A stretch of 64,000 nt of DNA from an uncultured Bacteroidia bacterium (GTDB taxonomy: Bacteria > Bacteroidota > Bacteroidia > Bacteroidales > UBA932). Below the pieces are notes generated by a model. That model searched no databases. It was not told the DNA's origin and saw only the letters and a list, made by a program, of their open reading frames with translations. Below are positions 13,914-55,730 of this stretch, in pieces; position 1 is the first letter of the stretch, and each line of letters opens with the position of its first letter. Position numbers and translations under genes: made by a program. The stretch spans positions 1 to 64,000 of the forward strand of contig CACZUR010000018.1 in the NCBI GenBank assembly GCA_902784435.1, written 5' to 3'.

Positions 13914-14528
13914 TTATCGGAAGAAACGCTCTATCCAGGCGGCGTCCACCTGCGCGAAGCCGGCGTCGGGTTTAATGTCCGGATGGCGGGACAGGATGCC
14001 CCGGGCGTCTTCGTATACGTTGAATCCCACATTTACAACCTGCATCTGGCCACCCAGGGGGAAGGCCAGCACCAGGTCGTTGTCGGCCCCTTCCAGGCGA
14101 AGGAATTTGAGGGGAGCCTGCAGGGCTTCCGGGTTCTTGGCGGCCAGTTCCCGGCGCGTCACCCATTTGCATATTTCCAGGATGCTGTCGTCCAGGCCGG
14201 CATCGTGGATGTTCACTTTCTCGATGAGGTCTCCCACTTCCCGTACCAGACGGAGGGTGTAGCCGTCCAGGTCCTTGACGGCATCGGCCACTTTCTGCGG
14301 GGGCATTTCCGTGCCCGGAAGCAGCCAGACCATGAGTTTGGCGTCCGGGTCGTGGTACAGCGTCTGGTACTTGGCCAGGTTGCGGTGACCGCAGTAGGGA
14401 CACTCCCACACAAAGAGGGAACCGTCCCTGACCCGGGCTTTGAGTTCCGGGTCAAGGGCGGTGTTGATGCTCTGACGGACTTCTATTTCCGTCTTCTGCC
14501 CGCACTTGTTACAGTTTACGGGCACCAT
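13914..14528 (-). CDS. CpXC zinc-ribbon domain protein
   Basis: A 204-residue protein with an N-terminal zinc ribbon made by Cys6-x-x-Cys9 and Cys43-x-x-Cys46 (ECPYCGH), matching the CpXC family. The remainder is mixed alpha/beta with no known catalytic motif. Family function is not established. The ATG at 14528 is preferred over a TTG at 14540 because it sits directly before the first zinc-ribbon strand. It overlaps the 3' end of galK by 20 nt, so the two are co-transcribed; nothing in its sequence links it to galactose metabolism. Confidence 0.8.
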   Translation of the reverse strand: MVPVNCNKCGQKTEIEVRQSINTALDPELKARVRDGSLFVWECPYCGHRNLAKYQTLYHDPDAKLMVWLLPGTEMPPQKVADAVKDLDGYTLRLVREVGDLIEKVNIHDAGLDDSILEICKWVTRRELAAKNPEALQAPLKFLRLEGADNDLVLAFPLGGQMQVVNVGFNVYEDARGILSRHPDIKPDAGFAQVDAAWIERFFR

Positions 14529-15651
14529 CGCTGATGACAACGTCGTACACCTTGGGGGCGTGGCCGAACTTGGCTTCGAACTGCTTCCTGGCTTCGGAGA
14601 CGAAGGCGTCGTACAGTTCGTCCTTGACCAGGTTGATGGTGCAGCCGCCGAAGCCGCCGCCCATCACGCGGGAACCGGTGACATCCATCTTGCGGGCCAG
14701 CTTGTTCAGGAAGTCCAGCTCTTCGCAGGAGACCTCGTACAGGCGGCTCAGGCCGAAGTGGGTCTGGTACATCATCTCGCCCACGGTTTCGTAGTCGCCG
14801 CGCTCCAGGGCGTCGCAGACGTCCAGTACGCGCTGCACTTCGCCAATCACATATTCGGCCCGCAGGAAGTCCTCTTCGGTGATTTCTCCGCGGACTTCGT
14901 CCAGCCACAACCGCTTGGCGTCCGAGAGGAATTCTACGTCCGGATGGTTTTTCCGGATGGCGGCGGCGGCCTTTTCGCAGGATTCGCGGCGCTTGTTGTA
15001 GGCGCTGGAGGCCAGCTCATGCTTTACGCAGGAGTCGATGAGCACCAGCCGATAGCCGTCCGGGCGGAAGGGGAAGTACTTGTACTCGCCGGTTTTGCAG
15101 TTGAGGCGCATCAGGGAGCCTTCCTTGCCGAAGATGGAGGCGAACTGGTCCATGATGCCGCACTTCACGCCGCAGTAATTGTGCTCCGTGCTCTGGCCGA
15201 TCTTGGCCAGTTCGAACTTCTCGATGCCGTTGCCGTTGATTTCGTTGATGGCGAAAGCAAATACGCTTTCCAGGGCCGCGGAACTGCTGAGGCCTGCGCC
15301 CAGGGGCACATCGCCGGCAAATACGGCGTCGAATCCCTGCACCTTGCCGCCCCGCTTGAGGGTTTCCCGGCAAACGCCAAAGATATAGCGGGCCCAGGAC
15401 TGCGCGGGTTTGTCTTCCTCGTTGAGGCCGAACTCCACATACTCGTTAAAGTTGATGGAGAACAGCTTCACCTTGTTGGTCCCGTTGGGCTCGATGGCCG
15501 CCATGATGCCGAAGTTGATGGCACCGGGGAACACGTAACCACCATTGTAGTCCGTGTGCTCACCAATGAGGTTGATACGGCCGGAGGACATATAGAGGGT
15601 GCCTTCCTTGCCAAACAGTTCTTTGAATTTTTCCTGGATTTTGTTTTTCAT
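14509..15651 (-). CDS. galK: Galactokinase
   Basis: A 380-residue GHMP kinase that phosphorylates galactose to galactose-1-phosphate, the entry step of the Leloir pathway. GRINLIGEHTDYNGG is the GalK signature, GLSSSAALE the ATP-binding GHMP motif, and GGGFGGCTINL the C-terminal motif. The frame stays open upstream into the repeat array, but the ATG at 15651 gives the conserved N-terminus and has a TATCTTTG -7 box 35 nt upstream. A galactose mutarotase gene lies 14 kb away, but galT was not seen in the window. Confidence 0.95.
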   Translation of the reverse strand: MKNKIQEKFKELFGKEGTLYMSSGRINLIGEHTDYNGGYVFPGAINFGIMAAIEPNGTNKVKLFSINFNEYVEFGLNEEDKPAQSWARYIFGVCRETLKRGGKVQGFDAVFAGDVPLGAGLSSSAALESVFAFAINEINGNGIEKFELAKIGQSTEHNYCGVKCGIMDQFASIFGKEGSLMRLNCKTGEYKYFPFRPDGYRLVLIDSCVKHELASSAYNKRRESCEKAAAAIRKNHPDVEFLSDAKRLWLDEVRGEITEEDFLRAEYVIGEVQRVLDVCDALERGDYETVGEMMYQTHFGLSRLYEVSCEELDFLNKLARKMDVTGSRVMGGGFGGCTINLVKDELYDAFVSEARKQFEAKFGHAPKVYDVVISDGARKL

Positions 15652-15685
15652 ATCTAGTGTTACTATTTTGGTTTTGCTTATCACA

Positions 15686-15693
15686 CAAAGATA
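15686..15693 (-). promoter_or_regulatory. -7 box of galK
   Basis: The minus strand reads TATCTTTG, an exact TAnnTTTG match, 35 nt upstream of the galK ATG. The first palindromic-array unit begins only about 40 bp further upstream, so the array abuts the galK promoter. Confidence 0.6.
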
Positions 15694-15735
15694 GTGAATA
15701 TTCCGCGAAAAACCGAATACCGAGGTTTCTGCCCG

Positions 15736-16190
15736 GTGTACATACCTCGCCCGGAACTCCTTCCTGCCCGCTGTACATACCTCCGCCAGAACCCCTTCCT
15801 GGCCGCTGTACATACCAGGTATGTACACGAAAACGGCCTCCTAGCGCGTTCCAGCTGTACATACCTCCGCCGGAACCCCTCTCCAGCCGCTGTACATACC
15901 AGGTATGTACACGAAAACGGCTTCCTAGCGCGTTCCAGCTGTACATACCTCCGGCGAAACCCCTTTCCACCCGCTGCACATACCAGGTATGTACACAAAA
16001 TCGGCCTCCTAGCGCGTTCCAGCTGTACATACCTCCGCCGGAACCCCTTCCTAGCCGCTGTACATACCAGGTATGTACACAAAAACGGCCTCCTAGCGCG
16101 TTCTGGCTGTACATACCTACGGCGAAACCCCTCTCCGTACACGAAAACGGCCTCCCAGCGCGTTCCAGCTGTACATACCAGGTATGTACA
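15736..16190. repeat. Left palindromic tandem array (REP-like), 84-bp composite period
   Basis: Alternating units both begin CTGTACATACC. Unit A is 49 nt and carries a near-perfect palindrome TGTACATACC-A-GGTATGTACA, then a spacer ending GCGCGTTCCAG. Unit B is 35 nt (CTGTACATACCTCCGCCGG...CCG) and holds only one arm. A units start at 15806, 15890, 15974 and 16058, an exact 84-bp period. Two B-like units precede (15736, 15771). At the right end the B unit at 16107 is truncated, an A unit lacks its palindrome (16137-16168), and a lone palindrome closes the array (16169-16190). It lies between galK and the RAYT gene, as expected for repeats tied to such transposases. Confidence 0.9.
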
Positions 16191-16227
16191 TCCGCACCCA
16201 CACCCACACCCGCATCTCCGCACAACC

Positions 16228-17148
16228 CTACATCACCAGACACCGTTTGATTTGCCTGGCGCCGGCATGGTAATCCCTATACAGGATATTGGCTATTTCC
16301 AGCTTTTCTTTCTGCGCCAGCTCATAGACAGAAAACTTCCCGTATCTAGGAACATACTGTGTATCAATCACCTTACATAGCTCCAGATCAGATATAGGTG
16401 CCGTCACATACCGGCTTTTTTCGTTTCGAAGCATCTCTGCAACCGTAACTCCGTCAGGAGCTATAAGCGGCGCCTCCATACTCTCCAGCGAAAAAGGTGC
16501 AGTGCCATTCTCGTCTTCCTGCTCTTTTATCCAATCGGTTCCACTCTTTCGGCCCATATAATAGTTAAAAGCCTGAACGGTGGAAAAACTATTCTCCACC
16601 AGGCCGATATCCAGGACCGTTTCGGGCAAGAAAACACCGGCAGGACCCATTTTCCACCGGGTCTCGAATGCCGCCCTCCTGGGAAGCGCCGCCTTTGTTT
16701 CCCAGAAATCCAACACTTTCTCAGGCATTGCGTCTTTTCCCAGCTCTTTTCGGAAATAGGCATTGGCCGAGGAATACGGATATTCGAACGGCGTCTGGCT
16801 AACCCCGTGATGCGGCGGGTTCTTCAGCGTATAGGAAACGGCGGCCAAGAAGTGCTTTAAGCCCACAACTTCCTGAATATAGCAACCCGGTTCTCCCAGC
16901 TGCCCCGTCCTCCGGTATTTGGAATTGAACTGTTTTGTGTAAGACTCCCGCGTGGTCCTTATCAGTTCAACGGGCTTCTGACTCGCGTAACAACCGTGAT
17001 GATGATCGCTCATCGCAGCGTAGGCATAGCAGGTGCTTCCGGTTTTGCATAAGGCCGAGCAAAGACTGTTGAAGCCCCTATTCATGTCGTCTTCGTTTCT
17101 GAACATCACCTCGCCATGGGAGGTGAAGCATAAATGGTAAGTTCCCAT
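16228..17148 (-). CDS. REP-associated tyrosine transposase (RAYT, Y1/HUH family)
   Basis: A 306-residue protein of the TnpA-REP group, single-strand DNA transposases domesticated to act on REP palindromes. The N-terminus (GTYHLCFTSHGEVMF) is the RAYT first strand. The HUH site is the His triplet in MSDHHHGCY (residues 49-51). Candidate catalytic tyrosines are Tyr70 and Tyr78 in SYTKQFNSKYRRTGQL, matching the usual YxxxFNxKYxRxG helix. The C-terminus (KLEIANILYRDYHAGARQIKR) resembles the DNA-binding tail. It is longer than many RAYTs. Palindromic arrays lie on both sides of the locus. The upstream nuclease gene ends 7 nt before its start, suggesting one transcript. Confidence 0.85.
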   Translation of the reverse strand: MGTYHLCFTSHGEVMFRNEDDMNRGFNSLCSALCKTGSTCYAYAAMSDHHHGCYASQKPVELIRTTRESYTKQFNSKYRRTGQLGEPGCYIQEVVGLKHFLAAVSYTLKNPPHHGVSQTPFEYPYSSANAYFRKELGKDAMPEKVLDFWETKAALPRRAAFETRWKMGPAGVFLPETVLDIGLVENSFSTVQAFNYYMGRKSGTDWIKEQEDENGTAPFSLESMEAPLIAPDGVTVAEMLRNEKSRYVTAPISDLELCKVIDTQYVPRYGKFSVYELAQKEKLEIANILYRDYHAGARQIKRCLVM

Positions 17149-17155
17149 ATATCAA

Positions 17156-18121
17156 TTATTTTTGGCCGATAGTCACCTGTATCCAAACCGGGCAGTGATC
17201 CGACACCCCACCCTGATACCGGGGGCCGGAGTAAGTTCTCAGGGGTTTCTCGCCGGCATGTCCTGCGTCCCGCGTCATCAGGAAAGGAATGCGGAGAATC
17301 TTCATGGACGGAGGTGCTTTCACCGCCCGGCTCACAAAAATCATGTCGATGAGTTCCCAAGCCCCGTCGTACTTGATGGTTCCCTCTCCTTGCCGACCAA
17401 GCGGCTCCGCCAGATTCCGCAACGTTGGCTCCAGGTCCTTGTAGACAGGATTGTCCGGCGTATCGTTCATATCGCCCATGGCTACAATCTTCCGGACGCC
17501 GGCGTCCTGCAAAGAATCGGCAAGCACCCGTAAACGCCTGACAGCCATCTGACGCCGGGCGTCGGACACGAGGGTACCTCCGTATTTGGAGGGGTGGTGG
17601 TTCACCAGGAAGGCGATGCTGTCGTCATCGGCCAGGCGAAAAGTAGCCAGCAGAATATCGCGGGTAGCGACGATGCTGTCCCCGGCGTAAAGATGGCAGG
17701 GACGGGCATCGGCCAGCTTCAGGCGGGAATGCCGATACAGGAGCGCGACGTCGATGCCGCGCCGGTCAGGCGAATCGAAATGCACGAGCCGATAGTCCAG
17801 CTTCCGCAGCGCCGTTACCTGTAACATCCGACGGAGAACAAAGGCATTCTCCACTTCCGCAAAGCCGATAACGTCCGGCACCCCTCCTTCCTGCGACCCT
17901 GCCCAAAGGATGCTCTTCGCAATGGCGTGGCACTTGGTATAGAAGCGTTTCCGCGTCCAGTGCCTTTCCCCGCGAGAACTGAATTCGGCGTCGGATACGC
18001 TGGTGGAATCGTTGCGCCAGTCAAAAAAGTTCTCCAGGTTCCAGAACATGACACGAAGGGTGTCTTCAGGAGGTTGCGCTGTTGCCAATAAAGCCCACAG
18101 CAGTGTAACAATCGTGCTCAT
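17156..18121 (-). CDS. Secreted endonuclease/exonuclease/phosphatase (EEP) family protein
   Basis: A 321-residue protein with a signal-peptide-like N-terminus (STIVTLLWALLATAQ). The EEP catalytic set is present: FWNLENFF, PDVIGFAEVEN, NHHPSKYGG, GDMNDTPDNP and the terminal SDHCPVW. The fold uses Mg2+ to cut phosphodiester bonds; Bacteroidetes homologues are annotated as secreted nucleases or phosphatases, and the substrate cannot be told from sequence. ATG 18121 is preferred because a TATATTTG box lies at 18126-18133; an ATG further upstream would place the promoter inside the gene. It lies 7 nt upstream of the RAYT gene and inside the pair of inverted repeat arrays. Confidence 0.87.
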   Translation of the reverse strand: MSTIVTLLWALLATAQPPEDTLRVMFWNLENFFDWRNDSTSVSDAEFSSRGERHWTRKRFYTKCHAIAKSILWAGSQEGGVPDVIGFAEVENAFVLRRMLQVTALRKLDYRLVHFDSPDRRGIDVALLYRHSRLKLADARPCHLYAGDSIVATRDILLATFRLADDDSIAFLVNHHPSKYGGTLVSDARRQMAVRRLRVLADSLQDAGVRKIVAMGDMNDTPDNPVYKDLEPTLRNLAEPLGRQGEGTIKYDGAWELIDMIFVSRAVKAPPSMKILRIPFLMTRDAGHAGEKPLRTYSGPRYQGGVSDHCPVWIQVTIGQK

Positions 18122-18125
18122 GCCC

Positions 18126-18133
18126 CAAATATA
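18126..18133 (-). promoter_or_regulatory. -7 box of the EEP nuclease-RAYT transcript
   Basis: The minus strand reads TATATTTG. Its 3' end is only 4 nt from the ATG at 18121, so the mRNA would be leaderless or nearly so. Confidence 0.5.
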
Positions 18134-18302
18134 AACGCCTGAGCGCGAAGTTGTCATGCAAAACAGAAAAATCTTTTAACGGATTTTTCCTGTAATAAAA
18201 TATTTTATTTATGGTTTTTGCCGGAACGACCTTTTTTTACGGGGAAACGACGTTTTTGAGGTCTGACAGCGGGTAGTGGCCTTCTGGTCCAGAGGTGAAA
18301 AA

Positions 18303-18620
18303 ATGTACATACCTCGTATGTACAACCGGAAGGCCGTGGAAGGGCGTTTTCGTGTTCATACCTGGTATGTGCAGCGGCTGGAGAGGGGTTCCGGCGGAGG
18401 TATGTACAGCTGGAACGCGCTGGGAGGCCGTTTTCGTGTACATACCTGGTATGAGCAGCGGCTGGAGAGGGGTTTCGCCGTAGGTATGTACAGCCAGACA
18501 GCGGCTAGGAAGGGGTTCCGGAGGAGGTATGTACAGCTGGAACGCTCTGGAAGGCCGATTTTGTGTACATACCTAGTATGTACAGCGAGCAGGGAGGGCT
18601 TTCGGGGGGAGGTGTTCCGC
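18303..18620. repeat. Right palindromic array, inverted relative to the left array
   Basis: The same units occur as reverse complements. Palindromes lie at 18304-18324 (TGTACATACC-TCG-type centre), 18353-18373, 18438-18458 and 18563-18583, separated by GCAGCGGCTGGAGAGGGGTT and GCTGGAACGCGCTGGGAGG-type segments. Copies here are more diverged than on the left (TGTTCATACC, GGTATGAGCA) and unit order is less regular. It lies downstream of the thioredoxin-like lipoprotein gene and upstream of the nuclease promoter. The preceding gap (18134-18302) is AT-rich, with no gene or clear structure. Confidence 0.85.
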
Positions 18621-18634
18621 GACAGGGAGCGCCT

Positions 18635-19582
18635 CTACAGCAGCATTTCCAGGACTTTTTCCGGGAGGGCGTCTTTCAGGAGGACGGTCTTGTCTTCGGA
18701 CAGCAGATAGAGGGAGGGGATGGCGCGGACGTTGTACAGGAGGTCTTCGCGGATGGTGAACGTGGGGTCGTAACCGTTGATCCAGGAAGCGGGGTAGCTG
18801 GCCTTGCGCTGTTTCCAGAGGTCGATATCCTGGTCGATATAGATGTCCACCACCTGCAGGGCGCCGGAAGTGATTTGGCCGGTGATTTCCGGATAGCTTT
18901 CCATCTGGGCCATCAGGTCCTTGCAGGCGGTGCAGTCCGGATTCCCGAAAATCAGGAGCGTCCGCGGGGCTTTGATGCTGTACAGGGTGCGGCGCCGGCC
19001 TTCCGTGTCGACGAAGATGAAGTCCGTGGCCGGGGTGCCCGTTCGGTTCATGCTGCACATCTGGGCGTCCCACTTGTAGCCCATGCGATAGGCCGGGTCG
19101 ATGAGTTCGCTGGCGGCGAGCTTCTTCACAAAGGGCAGGTACAGGTCTTCGCTGCGAACCGGCGAGTTGGGGTCGTAGAAGTAGCGGGTGGCCAGGCCCA
19201 CGGTCTGCGGAAGCAGGTTACCGGCCGGCTGGGCCTTCTGGAAGGCCTCCAGCCTTTCGTAGAAACGAACCATGGCCCGGCTGCCTTCCTCCAGGGGAAG
19301 GCTTTCTGTCAGGGTGGCGAAGATGCCCATCTGCTTTTCCAGGTCTTCCTTGCTTACGCCGTTAATCACCAGCGAATCGCAGCGATACAGGGTGTCCGGC
19401 TCCGTAAAACGGTCCCAGAAATGGTTCACCAGCCAGGCGGCCCGTTCCAGAGGGTCCGTTACCATCATGGGAACTTCCCCCATGGGGAAATCCCGTGTAG
19501 AACTCTCCGAGTACGAGGCCGAAGGGCCGGCGCACGCATACAGCAGCAGGGCAAAGCCCATCACAGTCAGAAGCTTTTTCAT
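18635..19582 (-). CDS. DUF5106-type thioredoxin-fold lipoprotein
   Basis: A 315-residue lipoprotein (lipobox LLLYAC, Cys17). The first 180 residues are helical (DPLERAAWLVNHFWDRF...), matching DUF5106. The C-terminal half is a thioredoxin fold with a Cys-Thr-Ala-Cys redox pair in FGNPDCTACKDL and the cis-Pro segment RAIPSLYLL. Such proteins face the periplasm and may handle thiol exchange or lipoprotein maturation; the true substrate is unknown. It has a TATCTTTG -7 box at 19587-19594, 4 nt before the start, and is divergent from the next gene. Confidence 0.85.
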   Translation of the reverse strand: MKKLLTVMGFALLLYACAGPSASYSESSTRDFPMGEVPMMVTDPLERAAWLVNHFWDRFTEPDTLYRCDSLVINGVSKEDLEKQMGIFATLTESLPLEEGSRAMVRFYERLEAFQKAQPAGNLLPQTVGLATRYFYDPNSPVRSEDLYLPFVKKLAASELIDPAYRMGYKWDAQMCSMNRTGTPATDFIFVDTEGRRRTLYSIKAPRTLLIFGNPDCTACKDLMAQMESYPEITGQITSGALQVVDIYIDQDIDLWKQRKASYPASWINGYDPTFTIREDLLYNVRAIPSLYLLSEDKTVLLKDALPEKVLEMLL

Positions 19583-42310: not shown

Positions 42311-42420
42311 GACCTTCCCCATAGGGGCCGCACACCTTCCCCAAACGTGCCTGGCACCTTCCCCATAGAAGGGGTACACCTTTCCCATTGGGGCGACCCA
42401 CCTTCCCTACAATGTACCCG
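42311..42420. repeat. 22-bp-period array with conserved 11-mer
   Basis: Units start at 42311, 42333, 42355, 42377 and 42399. Each begins with a conserved (G/C)ACCTTCCCCA word and ends with about 11 variable bases. Further copies of the word lie outside the register at 42236 and 42435, and reverse-complement GGGGAAGGT words at about 42211 and 42287. The period equals about two helical turns, so all words face one side of the DNA. Confidence 0.75.
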
Positions 42421-42521
42421 GCTCCTTTCTCAAGCACCTTCCCCTATTAAATTGCCTGTCCTTCCGGCGACGGGCCGGGGGCGACATGTAGACTGACCTG
42501 CGACAGAATGAACGATGACGG

Positions 42522-42724
42522 GCAACGTATTACGCGAAAAACGCCCAAAAGTGCGTAACAGGGTGCACTCCAAAGCAACGTGTAACGCAGAAAACGCCCA
42601 AAAGTGCGTAACAGGGTGTTCCTCGCGGCAACGTGTTACGCGAAAAACGGCCGAAAGCGCGTTACAGGGTGCCGGGAAGGGTAGGGTGTAACGCAGAAAT
42701 CGGCCGAAAGTGTGTTACAGGGTT
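42522..42724. repeat. 53-bp tandem repeat array, four copies
   Basis: Units start at 42522, 42575, 42628 and 42681. The conserved 44 nt run from GCAACGT through (A/G)TTACGC, a GAAAA-CGGCC-AAAAG centre and GCGTAAC to AGGGTG, followed by 9 variable bases. The GTTACGC/GCGTAAC ends form an imperfect inverted repeat. A fifth, isolated copy is at 42075-42118. Copies differ by several compensating changes. Confidence 0.85.
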
Positions 42725-54464: not shown

Positions 54465-55730
54465 ATGAACCGCACTGTGACATTACTCCTGTTGGGGTTA
54501 TTGGTCTTTGCCTGTACTCCGTCCCAGCCGGAGCAGAATCAGAACCCGGGTGGAAACACCAACCCCGGAGGAAACACCAATCCGGGAGGAAATACCAACC
54601 CGGGCGGAAACACCAACCCCGGTGAGGAAAAAATCGATTTTACCCCGGAGGCCTGGTACGAAACCAACTACTGGGACCGGTCCGACAGGGAAAAGGCCGG
54701 TCTCCGCGGTCCCGTGAAGCGGTGGTACCTGTCCAAGTCTTCGGCCCATCGGGTGTATGAGTACAACGAAGCCGGCAACATCACCCTCATCCGCGACGTG
54801 GATCCCAGCAGCCCCCGCGGAGAATGGATGGAGCAGCGTTTCTACGACGACAACAACCGCCTTGTCAAGAAAATCTTCGGCCGGAGCACGGAGAAAGGCG
54901 GGATGGAATTCGACGAATGGGCCGCCCTTGAAATCTGGACATACGAGTATGGGAATCCCGGAAAATATGTCTGGGTGCGTCCGGACGATTCTCCCTTCTC
55001 CAGCTTTTATGCCTTCCGCCACCTGAGCCCGGAGTCCTTCTCCGAGCACAATGTAGAGACGAATGGCAACGCCCTGATCATGAAAGATCTTTCCAAGATC
55101 CGGCTGGAGAATGCCAGTTTGGTGAATACGGGCTTCAGAGAGTATGTGGACTATGATTTTGTATTCAATGGCGAAGGCAACATGGATTACTCTTACCATC
55201 AGTATTCCAGGGCATACGACGTCAATACCGGAGAGGCCGGGGACATCCGGACCGATGACGGTACCGTCACTTTCGACCATCCCGTCATGTACCGGAATAA
55301 CTATCCCGTTTCCGGCACCATCGCAGTGAACGGCAATGTGCTCTACGAGATCACGTCCATTACCTGGCAGAGCAATGGAATGCCTCTCAAGATAGAAGGG
55401 CCGGACGGCATAACGGAGTTCTACCCCGACCAAAAACGTTATATCTGCACCAAACGATGGGACTGCCAGCCCGGAAAACCGCACGACTCCTTATTTGTCT
55501 TCGACTTCTGGGAAACTTTCCAATACAATGAAGCCGGCGACCTGACGGAGATGCAGGAGCGTTTCAATGAAGAATCGGACCGGCCCTGGACCCGTCCCAC
55601 CACCTGGGAGTTTGAATACGACAGTCACGGTAACTGGATCTCGTACAAAACCCAGTACATGATTGCCGTGGACGGTCCTGACGGAGAAGTCAAAAACGGC
55701 TCACTCTCAAGGACTATCGAGTATTATTAA
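54465..55730 (+). CDS. Lipoprotein with GGNTNP tandem-repeat linker
   Basis: A 421-residue lipoprotein (LLVFACTP, Cys17). Just after the Cys come four and a half copies of a six-residue Asn-Pro-Gly-Gly-Asn-Thr repeat (about 27-51), encoded by 18-nt units at 54541-54625, forming a flexible surface tether. The rest has YD/RHS-like strands (HRVYEYNEAGNITLIRDVD, EQRFYDDNNRLVKKIFG, FQYNEAGDLTEMQERF, FEYDSHGNWISYK), so it is a beta-repeat surface protein. The ligand is unknown. Its 3' end overlaps the convergent AraC gene by 17 bp. Confidence 0.8.
   Translation: MNRTVTLLLLGLLVFACTPSQPEQNQNPGGNTNPGGNTNPGGNTNPGGNTNPGEEKIDFTPEAWYETNYWDRSDREKAGLRGPVKRWYLSKSSAHRVYEYNEAGNITLIRDVDPSSPRGEWMEQRFYDDNNRLVKKIFGRSTEKGGMEFDEWAALEIWTYEYGNPGKYVWVRPDDSPFSSFYAFRHLSPESFSEHNVETNGNALIMKDLSKIRLENASLVNTGFREYVDYDFVFNGEGNMDYSYHQYSRAYDVNTGEAGDIRTDDGTVTFDHPVMYRNNYPVSGTIAVNGNVLYEITSITWQSNGMPLKIEGPDGITEFYPDQKRYICTKRWDCQPGKPHDSLFVFDFWETFQYNEAGDLTEMQERFNEESDRPWTRPTTWEFEYDSHGNWISYKTQYMIAVDGPDGEVKNGSLSRTIEYY

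Follow-up and report, generated by a model that had tools for sequence, protein, structure and literature searches.

The window analysed here is a stretch of 64,000 nucleotides (nt) from the genome of an uncultured Bacteroidia bacterium (Bacteroidales, UBA932; contig CACZUR010000018.1 of assembly GCA_902784435.1). It contains a gene for a RAYT, a Y1/HUH transposase of the kind associated with repetitive extragenic palindromes (REPs), next to a nuclease gene, and both are enclosed by two inverted arrays of palindromic repeats. We conclude that this locus is very probably a REPtron of a divergent RAYT subgroup, in which the nuclease is an old resident and a mere bystander. An earlier note on this DNA had read the 2.9 kb as one mobile module carrying the nuclease as cargo. 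Its identification of the RAYT and of the link to the palindrome is retained here, while the mobile module with nuclease cargo is not supported. The identity of the transposase as a RAYT (TnpA_REP) and its tie to the palindrome are supported by sequence comparison and by the fold match described below.

Layout of the locus

The transposase open reading frame (ORF) lies at 16228..17148 on the minus strand and encodes 306 amino acids, including a long C-terminal region. The nuclease ORF is located 7 nt upstream on the same strand; it is readable from 18157 (17156..18157), and its likely start is at 18121 (17156..18121). The left REP array (about 15732..16195, plus strand), delimited by tandem-repeat and inverted-arm comparison, has a period of 84 nt in 4.3 copies and holds 16 half-sites at up to one mismatch, with recurring offsets of 35/11/38. 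The right array (about 18304..18608, minus strand) is built of the units of the left array in inverted orientation and holds 10 half-sites. Arms of 188 nt are 86-87% complementary between the two arrays, and one stretch of 43 nt is 100% complementary. Gene order and the opposite orientation of two arrays of one palindromic unit are as the earlier note had described them. The typical left unit of 84 nt consists of the half-site TGTACATACC, 25 nt, the 21-nt palindrome TGTACATACCAGGTATGTACA and 28 nt, and the palindrome itself can be written as TGTACATACC-A-GGTATGTACA. The half-site TGTACATACC occurs 21 times in the window, every time inside the two arrays, with 0.03 occurrences expected. Rfam returned zero matches at E≤1 across 15600-18700.

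The transposase

In Pfam, the RAYT ORF has no match, and the Y1_Tnp model matches four of 28 homologues at E≤0.1. The NCBIfam model NF047646 (REP_Tyr_transpos) matches 14 of these 28 at the same threshold, the best at 1.8e-10. Residues H49, H51 and Y106 are unvarying across 62 aligned proteins, so that the HxH motif and the single tyrosine of the class are both present; from what is known of the family, these residues would be the catalytic ones. The AlphaFold2 model of the protein (pLDDT 92.2) finds as its top PDB match in Foldseek 4er8, the E. coli TnpA_REP bound to REP (E 5.5e-06, probability 1.00), over 157 columns and with a TM score of 0.68 by target length, in agreement with a Y1/HUH fold. 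There are three matches at E≤0.001 overall, and those following 4er8 are IS200/IS605 transposases at E 5e-4 and weaker. Searches of the PDB by sequence yielded none for the RAYT (E≤1), the RAYT profile (E≤1) and the nuclease (E≤0.01). The fold matches cover about 100-157 columns of the 306 residues. We take the matched part to be the N-terminal one, where the motifs sit, and the remainder of the predicted model to be a further domain without known kin.

In the host genome, which is 82.6% complete, a second close copy of the RAYT was not found, and two other RAYT-like genes share only 23-24% identity with it. The gene is thus not multiplied, and there is one gene for the REP family. An IS200/IS605 insertion sequence was rejected as a candidate, as near-identical copies of the whole element would be expected in this case.

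The REP population of the host genome

Searching the genome for the palindrome, as the earlier note had proposed, reveals many further copies. There are 69 forward matches at up to three mismatches and none in the reversed control, and the consensus unit has 66 matches. When the window and 15 further stretches around unit matches are considered and single half-sites are dropped, 185 half-sites (at most one mismatch) fall into 13 arrays, including the two of the window, and seven isolated palindromes. The offsets 11, 38 and 35, with a sum of 84, recur in the arrays. The REPs are hence dispersed in many copies in their host. Long ORFs reported across some arrays are taken for chance. Among 150 genomes and at up to one mismatch, 59 forward matches fall into the host genome and a single match into G064, and 148 of 149 relatives do not contain the palindrome.

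The stops of a dnaE-like and a secDF-like gene are 822 nt apart in the host, including an array of 631 nt, and 54 nt apart and array-free in genome G028. The corresponding gap in G038 measures about 230 nt and has other repeats inside. In single-stranded DNA folding, none of 200 shuffles came up to the minus strand of one unit (z -4.6).

Repeats around the RAYTs of relatives

RAYT homologues at E≤1e-20 are present in 30 of the 150 genomes, all within the genus of the window. A scan of GTDB contigs gave 70 RAYT loci, which belong to Bacteroidales or Bacteroidia metagenome-assembled genomes, many named from ruminants. The 14 closest RAYTs of at least 51% identity (the window, L144-L155 and L192) have TGTACA sites on both flanks. 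For 12 of these RAYTs, the flanks up to 300 nt (7.2 kb in total) contain 79 sites (11.0 per kb), compared to 19 in 60.0 kb (0.32 per kb) further out. Inverted REPs flank the gene, and in the window the upstream REPs sit beyond the nuclease. The palindrome arm is GGTATGTACA in the window and CTGTATGTACA in G028 (locus L155); other arms in this clade of 14 are AGACTTGTACA, GTTTGTACA, AGCTTGTACA, ATCTGTACA and ATGTGTACA, and the palindrome sequences are CTGTATGTACAG in G028 and AGACTTGTACA in G069. Since AGACTTGTACA is common to six loci and GTTTGTACA to two, the arm marks subclades and not every species. The exception is L153, with the main repeat GCAGCGTACAG and just three TGTACA sites. Arms were read by eye for two loci: the automatic top word of L148 turned out to be a coding repeat, and L155 had no computed word. 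TGTACA offsets of 15, 34, 50, 34 and 15, or parts of this series, recur on both flanks in most of the clade. In six folded loci (L144, L146, L149, L150, L152 and L192; 12 elements, with 3 to 6 of 6 expected sites found), folding without a shuffle control gives a large imperfect, often nested palindrome for the stretch of about 165 nt.

The variant repeats have populations of their own. Of the 38 matches to the G028 variant in G028 itself, 26 lie apart from the RAYT locus; 11 other genomes have 0-3 each, where the reversed control yields 0-4 per genome. GCGAGACTTGTACA is found 14 times in G069 and 12 times in G003 (9 and 6 away from the RAYT), three times in G064 and 0-1 times in nine others. 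These genome-wide counts cover the G028 and G069/G003 variants.

Across the wider family, a repeated 9-mer equalled in at most one of 40 shuffles was detected in the 600-nt flanks of 53 of 65 RAYT loci. At offset positions the same test succeeded for 7/53 loci at 1.2 kb, 7/46 at 2.4 kb and 2/44 at 3.2 kb, and loci allowing both tests gave 37/45 for the flanks versus 8/46 for the offset. A first run had given 54/66 including one N-masked locus, and three loci with short flanks are excluded. The repeat sequence co-varies with the enzyme, as seen for 49 loci with a top word present four times or more. The word of one locus occurs at least three times in the flanks of the other in 4/472 ordered pairs below 40% RAYT identity, in 14/1186 at 40-50%, 30/206 at 50-60%, 15/362 at 60-70%, 17/82 at 70-80% and 31/44 above 80%. 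The correlation of 0.34 between word sharing and RAYT identity was reached in 0 of 999 permutations. The dip at 60-70% shows that repeats can change faster than the enzyme. Together with the copies in the host genome and the fold match to 4er8, this cognate pairing supports the tie of the RAYT to REP palindromes that had been proposed beforehand.

We also observe that AAAAAAGGCCGATTTTGCGGG recurs in the repeats of different species and beside another RAYT (L237, about 2100-2335, in G038; L116, about 10500) and that the G028 unit (L107) also contains GGCCGATTTT. An exchange of spacers between families of repeats is possible.

The nuclease as a resident gene

The nuclease matches Pfam PF19580 (Exo_endo_phos_3) at 1.9e-64. 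From the likely start at 18121 it begins with MSTIVTLLWALLATAQ, an N-terminus that appears signal-like by eye. At E≤1e-20 it is present in 141 of 150 genomes and in 54 of 60 genera. We examined 28 nuclease loci (L045-L072), and in 23 of them galK is next on the same strand, with neither a RAYT match nor TGTACA in the gap. This gap spans 23-171 nt in 21 loci and 506 (L071) and 592 nt (L057) in two; the gap of L057 contains a small gene-like stretch by eye and no RAYT remnant. In the five remaining loci, L053 and L056 are RAYT loci, L059 has galK on the other side, the galK start of L049 is outside the sequence, and L055 carries a RAYT-like gene discussed below. Nine of the 23 genomes with a RAYT-free gap have a more distant RAYT elsewhere, so that the RAYT is lacking at this site only.

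The nuclease is not cargo because it is found in nearly all genomes, mostly before galK without RAYT or TGTACA in between; judged from this distribution, it is a bystander. The candidate of a mobile module with nuclease cargo was rejected on synteny, as the nuclease is neither restricted to RAYT genomes nor moves with the RAYT. Relatives with the nuclease and without RAYT or arrays at the site are exactly what the earlier note had named as speaking against its module. A scar left by a lost RAYT was likewise considered and rejected, with no TGTACA in 23 of 23 nuclease-galK gaps.

Arrival, losses and rearrangement at the site

The 14 nuclease-linked RAYTs, including that of the window, form one clade (SH-aLRT 100). 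Counting starred branches only, the presence of the RAYT at the site needs at least three changes in the YchF tree and four in the nuclease tree; as drawn, either tree needs five, both being quick trees. One RAYT clade behind the nuclease is most simply explained by one arrival followed by repeated loss under inheritance. Transfer of the linked nuclease-RAYT pair is a possible alternative to inheritance with losses.

The distance from the nuclease stop to the RAYT is 65-303 nt in 12 species, with one to five TGTACA sites past the end of nuclease homology and before the RAYT; those of L151 fall into a longer nuclease frame. The window and G028 have no TGTACA between the genes, which are 7 and 1 nt apart, and their arrays are outside the pair. 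Without repeats between them the two genes nearly touch, and the nuclease ends up inside the bracket. In these two species the RAYT is probably co-transcribed with the nuclease. In the window and G028 it is the RAYT side of the pair that points to YchF, and in the 12 others the start of the nuclease; of these 12, 10 have YchF collinear and two divergent. In G069 and G003, galK is kilobases away from the pair. That the window segment was inverted simply by recombination between two arrays lacks support, as only 3 nt and no array lie between YchF and the gene after it.

Elsewhere in the host genome, an array (L137, G000:C33:1281-1553) is located between apt and guaB. The two genes are divergent here and collinear in the five relatives in which both could be compared (G037, G005, G038, G019 and G034). 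This array likely marks an inversion breakpoint, and judging from gene order the arrays could serve as inversion points of the chromosome.

Proposed mechanism and alternative explanations

From the biochemistry of the family, the RAYT, an HUH nuclease with one tyrosine, most likely recognizes its own palindromes in single-stranded form. It would nick and rejoin them and in this way seed REP copies elsewhere. Local copies would then expand to 84-nt tandem arrays, probably via strand slippage or unequal exchange. Synteny and the single RAYT clade suggest that the RAYT gene arrived once behind the resident nuclease, in the gap between nuclease and galK, and was later inherited with losses; the window species and G028 would have lost the repeats between nuclease and RAYT.

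A very unlikely alternative is a working partnership of nuclease and RAYT, or a nuclease that is cargo, in which the two-gene unit enclosed by inverted arrays would move, or be selected, as a module. It would account for the position of the RAYTs of at least 51% identity, all 14 of which (the 13 fetched ones and that of the window) sit directly behind the nuclease on the same strand despite the distant galK in G069 and G003. The very short gaps in the window and G028 would also agree with it, as would the orientation of the pair towards YchF in these two, which indicates that the pair turned together. However, the nuclease is far more widespread than the RAYT (141 versus 30 of 150 genomes), and because the RAYTs form one clade, the 14 adjacencies count as one event. 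The earlier note had asked whether the two genes co-occur elsewhere, and 0 of the 57 fetched RAYTs of at most 48% identity adjoin the nuclease, some of them on short contigs. There is also no second close RAYT in the host genome, and a secreted nuclease would presumably not meet a cytosolic transposase. We consider it very unlikely that recombination spread the arrays as ordinary tandem repeats or as sites for a regulator, and that they flank the RAYT only incidentally. The 84-nt tandem period and the one array at which apt is turned relative to guaB are compatible with this explanation, and perfect palindromes fit a dimeric DNA-binding protein as well. It would not lead one to expect locus-specific repeated words around the RAYT in 53 of 65 loci that are rare at offset positions, the co-variation of repeat and RAYT sequence, or the subclade-dependent arms around a near-fixed TGTACA core in the clade of 14.

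Several observations weigh against a REPtron of a divergent RAYT subgroup with a bystander nuclease. The RAYT scores 24.8 bits with NF047646 and misses the equivalog cut-off of 80, and inspection of the REP foot did not find a GT[AG]G tag, with a TGTACA core in its place. The fold signal is uneven: the plus strand of the same unit gives z -2.2 with 7/200 shuffles as good, and a stretch of the right array z -1.2 with 24/200 as good. Only one array could be paired with an empty orthologous gap, and no single REP insertion was dated. The sharing of repeat words does not rise evenly between 50-60% and 60-70% RAYT identity. G064 has one near-match of the window palindrome and three AGACTTGTACA matches without a RAYT at E≤1e-20; its RAYT was possibly lost or is unassembled. 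In L055 (G070), the gene immediately upstream of the nuclease is a distant RAYT-like one of 24% identity, possibly an independent arrival there.

Relation to known systems

It was described in 2010 that inverted REPs flank RAYTs and that bacterial interspersed mosaic elements (BIMEs) directly adjoin a third of these genes (PMC2817692). Bracketing by inverted REPs is therefore a known arrangement and the usual REPtron layout, so that arrays around the gene are less unusual for a RAYT than the earlier note had supposed. Further work deals with the classification of TnpA_Y1 proteins (PMC6006769), recognition by RAYTs (PMC8266576) and TIRYTs (PMC3733652). The E. coli TnpA_REP (yafM/rayt) REPtron is alike in its Y1/HUH gene, which has inverted palindromes or BIMEs on both sides, and in the dispersal of these elements in the genome (PMC2817692). 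The window differs from it by a protein of 306 amino acids with a long C-terminal region, TGTACA-core half-sites without a GTAG tag, an 84-nt period and, in two species, a resident nuclease inside the bracket.

TnpA_Y1 subclass 2.6 (RAYT group 5) shares with the window its occurrence in Bacteroidetes, atypical flanking structures without GT[AG]G and copies elsewhere, and subclass 3 also is without GT[AG]G, according to PMC6006769. The table row for subclass 2.6 in this source gives 179, which we take as the median length, and WQ, whereas the window RAYT has 306 residues and, by eye, LGE at apparently the same place. Subclasses 2.1/2.3 and the TIRYTs have a long C-terminal domain, and the TIRYTs also have long inverted repeats around the gene (PMC6006769, PMC3733652). 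In contrast to the window, subclasses 2.1 and 2.3 are described there as without REP-like sequences (PMC6006769). The consensus of the terminal inverted repeats, GGGG[AT][CG]A[CG], differs from the repeats found here.

REPINs are scattered doublets and are tied to one RAYT, whereas the repeats of the window species mostly form 84-nt tandem arrays. The Pseudomonas REPINs are alike in that inverted pairs of palindromes form a population in the genome (PMC3116915, PMC8049555).

Measured against published descriptions, a subgroup of RAYTs that combines a long C-terminal region with cognate REPs lacking GT[AG]G is apparently new, as are apparently the nested palindromes of about 165 nt and the fast-diversifying repeats. 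Among the top-ranked matches in open-licence literature, no description of this RAYT family was found. As a tentative proposal, these enzymes could be a new RAYT subclass of gut Bacteroidales in which the C-terminal domain, and not a GTAG guide, reads a near-fixed TGTACA together with a fast-changing arm of a few bases. Each lineage would then have a private REP code, with nested-palindrome units and with arrays as inversion points. Dozens of natural RAYT/repeat pairs within one bacterial group, with a near-fixed core in the clade of 14, are available. As the repeats vary with the enzyme, recognition of REPs by RAYTs without a GTAG guide becomes directly testable. The role of the long C-terminal region is likewise testable, given that the RAYT subclasses with long domains are reported without REPs. 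The locus also shows how a bystander gene enters a transposon-like bracket without being cargo.

Neighbouring features and further repeats

At 14509..15651 on the minus strand lies galK, which in relatives usually follows downstream of the nuclease. Two motifs on the same strand were noted by eye, which we take to be Bacteroidetes-type -7 boxes: TATATTTG at 18126..18133, just before the likely nuclease start, and TATCTTTG at 15686..15693, between the left array and galK, as part of a putative galK promoter. A stretch like TAnnTTgGG..ATG also precedes the nuclease genes of relatives by eye. The box TATATTTG would drive nuclease and RAYT, so that the RAYT may use the nuclease promoter and galK its own.

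Two distant RAYT-like genes of the host genome have repeats nearby. That of L117 (G000:C25) is surrounded by CCGTCCGGGA / CCGGACGG repeats, and that of L116 (G000:C24) is followed by a GTGCGGGAGGTGTCC hairpin. A second dispersed array family is represented in the window at 42521-42723 by a 53-nt unit with inverted GTAACGC/GCGTTAC half-sites, and it has 69 matches in the host genome (e.g. L220-L222 and L128). Between the four inverted array pairs of this family that were viewed, no RAYT-like ORF was seen by eye in the ORF lists. All seven isolated TGCACATACC-type palindromes outside the 84-nt arrays adjoin 53-nt arrays, as if the two formed composites. Short tandem arrays are also present in the window at 42312-42407 and 54543-54630, with units of 22 and 18 nt.

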